DNA from: Kiritimatiellia bacterium
GTDB lineage: Bacteria > Verrucomicrobiota > Kiritimatiellia > CAIQIC01 > Lenti-01
NCBI GenBank assembly: GCA_017540905.1
Contig: JAFYAC010000071.1
Span: 1-54,458 of the forward strand
Direction: 5' to 3'
Length of the DNA: 54,458 bases
The notes under the pieces are model-generated. The model was given only the letters and a program-made list of their open reading frames with translations. It did not search any database and was not told where the DNA came from. Below, in pieces: positions 43,567 to 49,356 of the stretch; the first letter of the stretch is position 1; the number at the start of each line of letters is the position of its first letter. Made by a program: the position numbers and the translations under genes.

Positions 43567-45243
43567 TTACCGAGAGAGGAGCCCGTCAAGCTCGTTTTGG
43601 AAGGCTTCCACGGTGGAGGTGGGTGCGCCAGGATCATAGCGGACATTGCCGCCGTGCAGGGCCGCCAGGCGCTTGAGGAAGAGGGGCAGGTAGCACCCCG
43701 GCGTCGCCAGCCGCGCCGGCATGTAGCCGAAGGGCGGCGCAAGAAGCGTTTCCGCCAGCTTGGCCAGGGTGTCGGACGGGCGCAGCACGCGCGGCGGGGG
43801 ATTGTCGGTTTCGGGCAAGTTCGGCGGGGCGGGGAACCCGGCCGTCTCGTCGGCGGCCAGCGGGATCCGGTAGGCCTGGCGCCGCGAGCCGGGCTCGCCA
43901 ACCGGCGCGATGGCCTCTGCAAACGACACGACGCGGTCCTTCACGGGCAGGGCCCGCAACCGCGCCAACAAGGCGGGCGGCAAATCGAGCGGGAAGCACA
44001 ACTCGGCGGGACGCGGTTCGCGTTTCAGGCGCCATCCGTTTCCGTCCGGGGAGCGCGTCCATACGGGCACGGATCCGGCACTGGGATTTTCTGGGAGCTT
44101 GTCCATGGCCTTGGGGTCGGAGTAGAGGGCCACGGCGGCTCCGAGCAGTTCCACGAGATCGGCCAGTTCGCGCCCCCCGACGGGATGCGGCAGGAAACCG
44201 GGCGCGAAGCATTCGAGCGACGGCAGATGCCCGCGCGCGAACTTGAGACCGCCCGCCTTGATGGCCGCCGCCTCGCCGGGCAGCAGTTCGGAGGACTTGA
44301 GGAAGGCCAGCTGCCATTGCCAGAACACCAGGCCCGTCAACGGGTTGTCCCCGCACCCCGAAAAATCGTGGACGGCGCGGAAGGTGGCAAAATCCGGGTA
44401 GAATGCCAGCGCATGGTATTCGCCGAGCATTCCCATGGGCGAGAGGACCCGCTCCCGTCCGTCCGCGAGCTTGAGGACGGCGACGCATTCCTCTTCCAAG
44501 CGCTCCCACGGGGCGAGCTTCCAGATGCGCAGGGCCAAGGCGTGCGCGAGGCCGAGGCGGGCGGGATCGACGGGCGTGTCGTCGAGTTCGATCTCCTCGG
44601 CGGGCGCGGACGGCGGGTTTTCGGCCGGATTGCGCCAGGGAAAACCACGAGTGTGCAGGAGTCCCTGTCTGGCGATGGGATTTTCCCGGAACATGTTTTC
44701 CACCGCATCACGCAGTCCAGGAGGCAGCGAGTCCATGTCCTCCTCGAGATTTCCGGAGAACAAGAACGGATCGTCCCCATCGTCGTCATCCTCCTCCTCC
44801 CCGAAATCCTCGCGCAGGTATTGGTTGATTTCAGCGAGGGCGGCCTTGTGCGGCCCGGACTTCGGCCCGGAGACTTCCAGGCATTCGGGGCCTTCGCCCT
44901 CGTCGGTGCGCAGGAACTCCACCTCGGCGCGGAGGGGTTTGCCCGCGTCATCCTCCCACGAGCAGGCAAGCACATCCTTTTCCTTGGACAGGTGCGCCGA
45001 AATGGGGTCTCTCGACGACATGCCCCGATCCGGTCCGGCATCCCCGTCGGGAAACAACCCGCACCGCTTGGCGCCGTCGGGAGAGGAGAACGTCCAACTT
45101 TCTTCATCGTCCCGGAAATCGAAGACATCGAGGAGGGCCTGGTGCAGGTCGCACAGGTTCAGGCCGTCGGCGGGCAGCGCGAGGACGCAAGAGGTGGTGG
45201 TACGGTGCCGGGTATGCCGGCAAAGGAGGATGATTCTTTTCAT
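43567..45243 (-). CDS. Hypothetical protein with pRiA4b ORF-3-like N-terminus
   Basis: 558 residues from ATG 45243 (MKRIILLC; ATG 45252 also possible; the frame extends into repeat DNA upstream). The first ~60 residues (TTTSCVLALPADGLNLCDLHQALLDVFDFRDDEESWTFSS) fit the pRiA4b ORF-3-like domain, in which a strand pair is followed by a DLHxxLxxxFxWxDxH helix. An acidic low-complexity stretch (EEEDDDDGDDPF) lies at ~150-162. The rest is a large region of unknown fold with many Leu/Pro segments. No catalytic motif recognised. Likely cytoplasmic. Convergent with the 43060 gene, 27 nt apart. Confidence 0.65.
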   Translation of the reverse strand: MKRIILLCRHTRHRTTTSCVLALPADGLNLCDLHQALLDVFDFRDDEESWTFSSPDGAKRCGLFPDGDAGPDRGMSSRDPISAHLSKEKDVLACSWEDDAGKPLRAEVEFLRTDEGEGPECLEVSGPKSGPHKAALAEINQYLREDFGEEEDDDDGDDPFLFSGNLEEDMDSLPPGLRDAVENMFRENPIARQGLLHTRGFPWRNPAENPPSAPAEEIELDDTPVDPARLGLAHALALRIWKLAPWERLEEECVAVLKLADGRERVLSPMGMLGEYHALAFYPDFATFRAVHDFSGCGDNPLTGLVFWQWQLAFLKSSELLPGEAAAIKAGGLKFARGHLPSLECFAPGFLPHPVGGRELADLVELLGAAVALYSDPKAMDKLPENPSAGSVPVWTRSPDGNGWRLKREPRPAELCFPLDLPPALLARLRALPVKDRVVSFAEAIAPVGEPGSRRQAYRIPLAADETAGFPAPPNLPETDNPPPRVLRPSDTLAKLAETLLAPPFGYMPARLATPGCYLPLFLKRLAALHGGNVRYDPGAPTSTVEAFQNELDGLLSR

Positions 45244-45541
45244 GCGCCCCATCCTATGGACGCACGCCCCCCATTGCAAACCGATATCGGCGCAAAGGGG
45301 AGGGATTCGCCTCCCGCCAGTGCTCCGGTCCTTGCCTGCGGCGGCAAACACGGAGCGAGCGGAGGAAGGAGACACGGAGAAGTATTTGGAGGGAGTGTTT
45401 TTGGAGGGGCGTTCGCGTCCCGGAAACACACAGCAAACTCTTGTCCGGGGAAAATGGGAAGGTGCGAAGCCTCCTACCGGAAAACTCCGTGCCTCCGACC
45501 TCCGCGCGCTCCGTGTTTGCGCCGCAGGCCCCGAACAATCC
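45244..45541. other. Intergenic region carrying an ACACGGAG-type inverted repeat element
   Basis: No gene. An element at 45341-45526 begins GCGGCAAACACGGAG and ends with the inverse CTCCGTGTTTGCGCCGC, with inner GGAGACACGGAG and CTCCGTGCCTCC. A diverged relative lies at 19199-19362. Confidence 0.7.
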
Positions 45542-47491
45542 TCACCCCACCGGCATTCGCCCCTGCCCGCGCTTGAGCCAGACGGAGAGGATGGCGATGT
45601 CGGCGGGGGTGACGCCGGAGACGCGGGAGGCCTGGCCGAGGTCGCGGGGGCGGATCGCGGAGAGCTTTTCGCGGGACTCGTAGCGGAGGGCGGCGATGGA
45701 ATGGTAGTCGAAATCAGCTGGAATTTGTTGCTCTGCAATGCGTTGTGACTTTTCTACGTTGCGCAGTTCCCGCTCGATGTAGCCCGCGTACTTCGTCCCG
45801 AACTCCACCTGCTCCCGGACCATCCGCGGCAGGTCGCCGCGGCGGTCGGGCATCGTGTCGTATCCGATTTCCGGGCGGCGCAGCCACTGCGCGAGGGTCG
45901 CCCCGTCGGGGGCGCGTTCCCGGTCCAGCCGGGCGAGCTCGTCGCGGATCTGCCCCTCCCGCTCCCGGATGGTCCGCAACCGGGCGGCGGGGACGATCCC
46001 CACCCTCTCCGCGGCACCGGCCAGGCGGAACACCGCGTTGTCCTGCCGGAGGAGCAGGCGGTGCTCCGCGCGGGAGGTGAACATCCGGTAGGGCTCCGTG
46101 ACCCCTTTCGTGACCAGGTCGTCGATCATCACCCCGATGTACGCCTCGTGCCGGGCGAAGACCAGCTCCCCCCTGCCGAGGACGGCCAGCGCCGCGTTGA
46201 TGCCGGCCATCACGCCCTGGGCGGCCGCCTCCTCGTAGCCGGTGGTGCCGTTGACCTGTCCGGCGAAATACAGTCCCTCCACCCGCTTCGTCTCCAGCGT
46301 CGGCTTGAGCTGCGTCGGGTCGAAGTAGTCGTACTCGATGGCGTACCCGGGGGCGAGGAACTCCGCGCGCTCCAAGCCGCGGATCGACCGGATCATCCGC
46401 AGCTGGACCTCCAGGGGAAGACTGTTCGACGTCCCGTTCGGGTACACCTCCGGGACCGACCGCCCCTCCGGCTCCACGAAGACATGGTGGTCCGTGTGGG
46501 AGGAGAACTTCACCACCTTGTCCTCGATGGAGGGGCAGTAGCGCGCGCCCGGGGCATCGATCAGCCCGCCGTAGAGCGCCGAATCCGCGAGGTGGGAAGA
46601 GATGATGCCGACCGTCCCCGCGTTCGTGTGCGTCAGGTGGCAAGGGATGGGGTCGCTCCCCGGAACCCACGGGAACAGCGCGGAACCCGATGTTCCACGT
46701 GGAACCATCGACTCGCCGGCGCGTTCCGCGGCCTCATCGCCGCCGGATGGGTTCCTCCCCGGTTGTTCCACGTGGAACAATCCCTCCCGGCCCTCCCAGG
46801 AAAAGAACGGCACGGGATCGGTCTCGCCCGGCTCCACGGCCATGGCCGCGTAGTCGATGAAATCCTTGTGCAGGCGCGGCGGGGTGCCGGTCTTGAGACG
46901 TTCCACGTGGAACCCCAGGTCCCGCAGCTTGTCGCTCAGCTCCAGCGCCGCGGGCTCACCCAGCCGCCCGGCGTCCACGGCGTGCTTGCCGACGAAGATT
47001 GTTCCGTTGAGGAACGTCCCCGCCGTCAGGACCACGCACCGCGCCTCCAGCCGCCCCGACTGGGTGCCCAGGACGCCCGCCGCGCGTCCGTTTTCCACGA
47101 GGATTTCCCGCACGGTGTCCTCCACGACCGCCAGGTGCTCCTGCCGCCGCAGCACCTCCGCCATGCGCGCGGAATACGCCGGCTTGTCGCACTGCGCCCG
47201 GTTGGCCTGCACGGCGGGCCCCTTGCGGCGGTTCAGCACCCGGAACTGGATGCCCGTGCAGTCGGTGTTCCGCGCCATCTCCCCGCCCAGGGCGTCCAGC
47301 TCGAACACCATGTGGGACTTCGCGATGCCGCCGATGGAGGGGTTGCACGACATCTTGGCGGCGTTTTCCGCCTTCATGGTCACCAGCGCCGTATCCACGC
47401 CCATCCGCGCCGCCGCCAGCGCCGCCTCGCAGCCCGCATGGCCGGCCCCGATGACGATCAGCTGGAAGGTCTTCTTTTCTGGGGTATTCAT
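45542..47491 (-). CDS. mnmG: tRNA uridine-5-carboxymethylaminomethyl modification enzyme MnmG, with inserted segment
   Basis: 649 residues. MnmG with MnmE installs the cmnm5 group on wobble uridine using FAD, NADH and methylene-THF. FAD motif [20 protein letters not shown] at the N-terminus; [38 protein letters not shown] and [18 protein letters not shown] are canonical. ATG 47491 has AAGGAAG upstream. Between VPFFSW and IPCHLTHTN (residues ~228-282) it has about 35 more residues than E. coli MnmG. That insert encodes HVEQ and VPRGTS through two TTCCACGTGGAA palindromes, and a third sits at HVERLKTG. The gene follows mnmE by 67 nt on the same strand. Confidence 0.97.
46691..46706. promoter_or_regulatory. 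parS-like site 1
   Basis: TGTTCCACGTGGAACC, inside mnmG. Matches the ParB-binding consensus TGTTNCACGTGNAACA at all but the last base; the form in Pseudomonas is the same. Confidence 0.75.
46764..46779. promoter_or_regulatory. parS-like site 2
   Basis: TGTTCCACGTGGAACA, a perfect 16-bp palindrome matching the parS consensus, inside the inserted segment of mnmG. Confidence 0.8.
46899..46914. promoter_or_regulatory. parS-like site 3
   Basis: CGTTCCACGTGGAACC, core TTCCACGTGGAA intact, inside mnmG at the codons for FHVER. Confidence 0.7.
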
Positions 47492-47558: not shown

Positions 47559-48989
47559 TCATTTCCCCACGCAGAACCGCGAGAACACCGCGTCCAGCGT
47601 ATCCTCGTCCCACTGCCGCCCCAGGATGGCGGCCATCCGCACGGCCGCCTCCCGGAGTCCCATGGCGGCCGGCAACCAGTCTTCCTCCCGTCCGGTTTCC
47701 AGCCGTCCCTCCGCCTTGCGGAGCTCCTCCAACGCCTCGCGCAGGGCCTTTCCGTGGCGCGCCGATACCGCGACCTCGCCGGACTCGGCGGACGCCCCGG
47801 CGGCTCTCTGGATGGGGAAGGGGGCCCCGTCATCCGGTTCCAGCCCCGCCTTCCGCAGGATCATCCCGACCACGGGCTCGCGCGCTTCCGGGTCCACCAG
47901 CGACACGGCATGGAAAACGTGTCCGCCGACGCGGAACCCGGCCGAGCCGTCGCCCAGGTCCGCCTTGTTGGCCAGGCAGAGGGTCGTGGCGGGATCGCGT
48001 CCCGAAAGGAATGCGACCTCCTCCTCCGACAGCGGCTTCGAGGCGTCCACCAGGCAGACCAGCAGGTCGGCCGCCTCGACCGCTTCGCGGGCCCGCCGGA
48101 TGCCTTCCCGTTCCACGGGGTCCGGGGCCTCCCGCAACCCGGCGGTATCTTGGAACCGGATGGGGTACCCATGGAGGCTCGTCTCGGCCTCTATGATGTC
48201 CCTGGTCGTTCCGGGATAAGGAGATACAATTGCTTTGCCTTCCCCGCAGAGCAAGTTCAACAACGTGGATTTCCCGGTGTTCGGCGCTCCCGCGATGGTA
48301 ATCCGGAGTCCGTCCCGGAGAATGCGCCCCTCGTGCCACGTTGCTAGTAGCGCTTCGAGCCTATCCATGGTCCCGCGGAGCCGCCCCAGCAGTTCGGCGG
48401 GCACTTCCTGCGGCAACTCGTCATCGGGGAAATCCAGCATGGCCTCGGTGTCGGCAGAAAGGCAGACCAGGTCGTCGTACAGTCCGCGGATGCGGCGGCC
48501 CAGGGCATCGCCGAGCTGGGCGGCGGCCAGCCGCGCGGCGCGTTCGCTCCGGGCGTGGATGAGGTCGCCGACGGCCTCAGCCTGGGTCAAATCCATTTTT
48601 CCGTTCAAGAACGAACGTTTCGTGAATTCCCCCGGCTCGGCCATGCGGGCCCCGCCTTCGAGGGCGGCCTGCAGGATGGCCTGCACGGTGCGGGGCGATC
48701 CGTGGCACTGGATTTCGACGGAATCTTCGCCGGTGTAGGAGCGTGGCGCGCGAAAGACGAGCAGGAGGCCCTCGTCGAGGACGGTCCCGCCGGGGCCGGA
48801 GAGGACGTGTCCGAACCGGAACGAGCTCTCCGGCGTGAGGGAGGGCGGGGGACCGCCACGGGGCCGGAACAGGCGGTCCGCCAGGGGCAGCGCCTCCGGG
48901 CCGGAGATGCGGATGACCGCGATGCCCCCTTCGCCGGGCGGTGTCGCCGGCGCCACGATTGTGTCTTCGCGTACGGGGGGAGTTGTCAT
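47559..48989 (-). CDS. mnmE: tRNA modification GTPase MnmE (TrmE)
   Basis: 476 residues. N-terminal folate-binding domain ([65 protein letters not shown]), a helical domain, and an inserted G domain ([12 protein letters not shown] at ~233, then GTTRD, DTAGLRE, NKADLG). The C-terminus ends FCVGK, the family form of FCIGK with the catalytic Cys. ATG 48989 gives [14 protein letters not shown]; the frame is open further upstream through non-coding DNA. It forms an operon with mnmG. In many bacteria mnmE-mnmG lies near oriC and parAB, which fits the parS-like sites. Confidence 0.97.
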
Positions 48990-49356
48990 GCTCCCGTGAT
49001 ACACCCCGGGGCGCGTTTCCGCAATCCCTTCAATGGGGCGTTGACGGGGAATCCCGGCGGGGCTGTCCGGGAAATGGCAGAGCCGCTGGGCTGCGGGCCG
49101 TCCGGAATGGGTGGCCTTTTCATGGCGGACGCGCAGAAGCGCGTCCCTCCCCATGGAGAGAAGCGGTGGGAGGAAGCGGGAGGGAGGTAGCGGAATGAAT
49201 GGGCTGCGGGAAATGGTGGTGATGGAGGGAATATATGGTTGAAAGCCCGGATTGGCGGTGTGTTTCCTGTAATTGCAAAATTGGATGGGGAAGCGGTTTT
49301 TTGCGGCGGGGTGGGGCAGAGGGGGAGGGGGCAAGAGGACGGAGGGGAAGGGGCGA
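48990..49356. other. Intergenic region between the GT9 gene and mnmE
   Basis: No gene. It holds a partial copy of the double-hairpin repeat (49123-49160, GCGGACGCGCAGAAGCGCGT) and a minus-strand GCAATTACAGGAAACA motif (49277-49262) pointing at mnmE. Confidence 0.7.

Follow-up and report, generated by a model that had tools for sequence, protein, structure and literature searches.

Two palindromes in the coding sequence of mnmG are very probably working parS sites, a ParB-binding centromere carried inside the reading frame of the gene, and the residues of the loop that they encode would be dictated by the DNA. This reading draws on the position of the sites, their conservation, a constraint acting at the DNA level and their co-occurrence with ParB. 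The window, which is the whole stretch of 54,458 nucleotides analysed, corresponds to the entire contig C102 of MAG G000 (3.5 Mb in 178 contigs, 84% complete). The host gene, mnmG (gidA; 45542..47491, minus strand), encodes a protein of 649 aa matching Pfam GIDA (1.6e-144) and SAM_GIDA_C (8.9e-22). Upstream on the same strand lies mnmE (47559..48989; TrmE_N, MnmE_helical and MMR_HSR1 domains), and an ORF of 723 aa carrying DUF7309 (43567-45738) is found directly past the 3' end of mnmG, also on this strand.

The core TTCCACGTGGAA occurs exactly three times in the window (at 46693, 46766 and 46901), versus 0 occurrences in 100 shuffles. The corresponding 16-mers were scored against the parS consensus TGTTNCACGTGNAACA. 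Site A (46764..46779) is a perfect 16-bp palindrome and encodes FHVEQ; site B (46691..46706) has one mismatch to the consensus and encodes VPRGT in another reading frame; the third copy (46899..46914) has two mismatches and encodes FHVER, upstream of the MnmG insert and immediately before LKTGTPPR. An earlier note, made from the letters of the window, had reported three cores there and none elsewhere in it, two 16-bp parS matches among them, and the peptides FHVER, FHVEQ and VPRGTS; pattern counts and translation bore out each of these points. Sites A and B are also present in G001 and G002. Across the entire MAG, they are the only matches with at most one mismatch. At up to three mismatches, 42 matches were counted against 45 for a reversed control pattern, indicating that the mnmG sites alone stand out in this genome. 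The whole MAG contains four TTCCACGTGGAA cores, three of them in the mnmG of the window. The fourth (G000:C157:17884-17895) has flanks unlike parS, with 3 mismatches, and overlaps a 297-aa ORF in L004 (1431-2324).

The third copy was rejected as a conserved site. Both of its mismatches are at the outermost positions, so the 14-bp palindrome GTTCCACGTGGAAC is intact, and its core is common to G000 and G002. The same-genus genome G001 has CATGTG instead and retains FHVER with a broken palindrome, which goes against the third copy, and the FHVER place differs in the listed kin outside the genus. An independent one-mismatch copy was found at this place in G146, which is outside the genus. The third copy could be a weak site of recent origin, or else a by-product.

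A protein search identified mnmG in 53 of 57 genomes, that of the window included. Among the 56 relatives, 46 had exact sites, 75 in total, of which 71 were inside mnmG and four within 0.7 kb of it (just past the stop codon in G030, upstream in G036, G045 and G051); the reversed control pattern gave 0 matches in all 56. Copies scattered over the genome, which would have spoken against a centromere, were therefore not found, all 75 exact sites being in or next to this one gene. The ten relatives without an exact site comprised four in which the MAG had no mnmG match (G009, G010, G012 and G025) and six with inexact copies in mnmG. The in-gene sites of the relatives were located in the loop between a PFFSW-like strand and PCxLTHT.

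Analysis of a wider sample of the phylum detected an exact site in 79 of 144 genomes, with at least one site in mnmG in 73 of the 79. This number includes sites in the gap between the two matched stretches of mnmG; most were confirmed by translation, and 12 were placed by coordinates only (G081, G089, G092, G107, G116, G119, G123, G134, G165, G062, G090 and G101). The exceptions were G073, with exact sites directly upstream of mnmG and a two-mismatch copy in the loop; four genomes of family f34 (G060, G112, G144 and G172), with sites and mnmG on different contigs; and G171, in which no mnmG match was found. Ten f34 genomes had a site within mnmG but shifted to KKMFHVEH near residue 548; in the five whose old loop was read, it had FRMEQ or a similar sequence. 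The mnmG parS feature is thus phylum-wide and not special to the genome of the window. Two further arrangements were observed: G171 has five exact parS in 0.8 kb (G171:C84:2722-3520), and family f12 (G036, G051, G089, G092, G107 and G119) has a second exact parS upstream of mnmG besides the loop site.

Alignment of the window MnmG with the E. coli chain showed 44 residues between aligned blocks in the former versus 5 in the latter. The insert therefore has about 39 extra residues, near the 35 or so estimated in the earlier note, and as claimed there it contains two of the three sites. The same loop is short in proteobacterial MnmG. An AlphaFold model of the window protein (mean pLDDT 86.9) had pLDDT below 50 at residues 240-274 (46670..46774, minus strand), a predicted disordered insert within the loop from PFFSW to PCHLTHT. 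As this loop is predicted to be disordered and tolerant, its residues could be dictated by the DNA.

Loop length was compared with site number in 189 distinct loops from the named loci and the phylum sample, a set from which family f34 is mostly absent as its anchors differ. The median length was 79 aa with no site (n=94), 96 aa with one (n=43) and 112 aa with two (n=49); loops with three sites had 130 aa (n=2) and the one with four had 176 aa (Spearman 0.89, relatedness uncorrected). The sites could be real parS in a long loop that arose by neutral expansion of MnmG, independently of them, and that only offered them room. We regard this as unlikely, though it has some evidence on its side. 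Five site-free loops exceeded 90 residues: a Chloroflexi MnmG (L068) has a loop of 96 residues, that of G043 (L139) reaches 133 residues with degenerate copies only, and three verrucomicrobial loops (L043, L319 and L320) remain at 95. Against a neutral expansion stand the stepwise rise in length with site number and the lengths seen in a clade lacking ParB, where 20 of 20 loops read had 81-86 residues and no site.

Absence of parB from the MAG had been named in the earlier note as evidence against parS. One strong ParB_N match (1.1e-34) was found on another contig, accompanied by HTH_ParB (1.1e-32) and by alignment to Spo0J chains at 2e-51 or better. The corresponding gene (L092, 8490-10256, on G000:C92) is listed as an ORF whose start precedes the ParB domain by about 300 codons, and the four ORFs scanned beside it included no recognisable parA. 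In the available part of PMC7383237, ParB residues R173 and G201 are named for parS preference. Read against that source, the alignment places Arg and Gly at these positions here (GKAR and GHAK), and Lys at position R204. The distance from parB to mnmG is 411 kb in G038 and 184 kb in G019, and the two genes are on different contigs in G000, G007, G047, G049 and G053.

ParB_N was detected in 15 of 15 genomes of the class. In 42 genomes chosen from the phylum, HTH_ParB scored above 115 bits in every one of the 16 that carry a site, exact in 12 and with one mismatch in 4. The 26 lacking an exact site all scored below 73 bits, and none of them had a strong match. The four one-mismatch genomes were G066, G078, G084 and G160, the site of G160 being outside mnmG. 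Weak HTH_ParB matches among the 26 were those of G156 (72 bits), G177, G072 and G067. A one-mismatch scan covering 11 of these 26 genomes returned lone matches outside mnmG in G072, G094 and G152, near the control level. On a MnmG tree of 120 taxa, with f34 left out, the genomes lacking ParB formed one clade plus the pair G085/G103, a small-genome family, so that the link between site and ParB rests on about two independent losses. The pair (0.9-Mb genomes) has kept a loop of 95 residues with FHVKQ or FHVRQ and a decayed palindrome, which is what relaxed selection on the DNA predicts. Two genomes, G043 and G160, have ParB and no intact loop site. A different ligand, for example a protein regulating the mnmE-mnmG operon, or a methylase or factor that targets CACGTG, would account for sites confined to one operon. 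It is nonetheless very improbable: the exact 16-mer is identical to the parS consensus, its presence tracks a Spo0J-type ParB, and in f34 the site has moved out of the loop into the C-terminal region of mnmG or, in four sampled genomes, is on another contig than this gene.

The 16-bp palindrome was read in all three frames, as FHVE followed by Q or H, as VPRGT and as CSTWN. Starting from these peptides in 60 sequences, after removal of two that duplicated named records, and with each gene's own codon use as the expectation, the exact core was found in 69 of 72 copies of FHVE (2.9 expected), 16 of 16 copies of VPRGT (0.005 expected) and 6 of 6 copies of CSTWN (0.12 expected); the sequences are related and the copies are not independent events, but across this set the synonymous positions in the rest of the gene are scrambled. 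Only three FHVE copies used other codons, one of which (TTTCACGTGGAA) still fits the consensus. Among 98 four-residue words common to at least 35 of 54 kin, the share of a single spelling was 94% for FHVE and 32% for the runner-up; this control counts one FHVE per protein, the first, and in the genus of the window that is the one in FHVER. Frame use over 151 sites in the 189 distinct loops was 124 for the F frame, 18 for V and 9 for C, and use of the V and C frames required at least five changes on the MnmG tree. As for the edges of the sites, across 130 of them identity was at least 86% per base inside the 16 bp and at most 56% at every flanking base; because the sites had been chosen at up to one mismatch, this profile is free of bias only in the flanks and at the two inner positions left free. 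A protein sequence kept while its palindromes are lost, named in the earlier note as evidence against parS, was therefore not what the loop sites displayed, and was seen at the third copy in G001. Codon and frame tests led us to reject conservation of the peptide FHVE, with the palindrome as a by-product of codon bias, as a scarcely credible cause: FHVE is the usual reading and TTC, CAC and GTG are favoured by codon bias in many of these genes, but the exact copies far exceed expectation, other genes read the same 16 bp as VPRGT and CSTWN, no other shared word approaches one spelling, and the peptide stays near-identical over a decaying palindrome in the two small genomes lacking ParB.

Proximity of parS to oriC, which the earlier note mentions as known in many phyla, was seen in some contigs and not in others. 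GC skew changes sign locally in the window (48100..49000; cumulative minimum at 48425, in mnmE), and the contig extends no more than about 6 kb further. The cumulative minimum is 0.1 kb from mnmG in G007, with dnaA 6 kb away, and 2 kb from it in G047, with dnaA 30 kb away. No skew minimum near mnmG was found in G053, G048 or the same-genus G002 (contig C60), and in G019 the minimum lies by dnaA, 111 kb from mnmG (skew taken over the first 220 kb of this contig); sampled skew gave no support for an origin in G038. The distance from dnaA to mnmG is 67 kb in G038 and 110 kb in G019, and the two genes are on different contigs in G049, G053 and G000. Two DnaA C-terminal matches of identical score in the MAG (G000:C42:3688 and G000:C75:10203) are probably one gene assembled twice. 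DnaA boxes (TTATCCACA, up to one mismatch) numbered 3 in the window versus 2.2 expected, a count so near expectation that the box search located no oriC. The genes mnmG, rsmG, parA and parB were plausibly once neighbours at the origin, the centromere having stayed in mnmG after parAB left.

By analogy with what is known of ParABS, a ParB whose gene lies elsewhere in the genome would bind the loop sites and load as a CTP clamp, and ParB at the sites would offer a handle for ParA and a loader for SMC near the origin. Each parS would take up about six residues of the protein as well as a spacer, and the loop would have been lengthened by lineages for two, three or four sites, each in whichever frame was open. 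The proposal of the earlier note that a coding insert hosts parS inside mnmG gains support from the clustering of sites in this gene, the presence of ParB and the exact FHVE copies. We consider it likely that the main centromere has long resided in the mnmG frame across much of the phylum, that the disordered loop has been kept, lengthened and re-framed solely for parS, and that the centromere can move within the gene, as in f34, where it has exchanged the loop for the C-terminal part, or leave it. If so, this protein segment is a centromere's shadow in translation, and occupancy by ParB might in addition couple mnmG expression to segregation. This would clearly exemplify a DNA element that sets a protein segment's sequence, reading frame and length throughout a phylum, with a centromere set apart from parAB. 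The position of the centromere in uncultured bacteria would be indicated by sequence alone, and the natural losses, in the ParB-lacking clade and the small-genome family, let the consequences for the protein be read.

A literature search, with the catalogue of parS sites reportedly compiled by Livny and colleagues outside its scope, returned no report of parS in the mnmG of this phylum and none of a coding loop that lengthens and changes frame along with parS. The candidate centromere resembles the chromosomal parS of ParABS systems of the Spo0J/ParB type in its 16-bp consensus, its few copies and the Spo0J-like ParB of the genome; it differs in that the sites are concentrated in one reading frame and parB is not adjacent to them. 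Intragenic parS as such is already known. In Pseudomonas aeruginosa, parS are likewise found inside open reading frames, and PMC4368675 refers to the mutation of intragenic parS with the protein unchanged; the available part of that paper mentions no expansion of a host protein to carry the sites. For repABC, selection has been proposed to keep extra parS even inside coding sequences (PMC9040568, available part), and some lie within following ORFs; these differ in belonging to plasmid or chromid replicons, downstream of repC, and in lacking one host gene shared across a phylum. Twelve gut strains including Akkermansia muciniphila have ParABS homologues and one to ten parS, which were used to place ori (PMC10197239), with no host gene of parS named in the available part of that source; no mention of parB, parS or mnmG was found in that of PMC12283558. 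An in-gene site with at most one mismatch was present in 13 of 71 named loci from outside the group, 12 from Burkholderiales (offset 1400-1406 in mnmG) and one from Desulfuromonadales (1562), indicating that parS near or in mnmG is not confined to the phylum. The Burkholderiales sites differ from those described here in being at another place in the gene, encoding VSRET in the 2 of 12 translated, with no loop expansion seen and, in most, further sites just upstream of mnmG. It is the expandable loop that sets this phylum apart from other cases of parS in mnmG.
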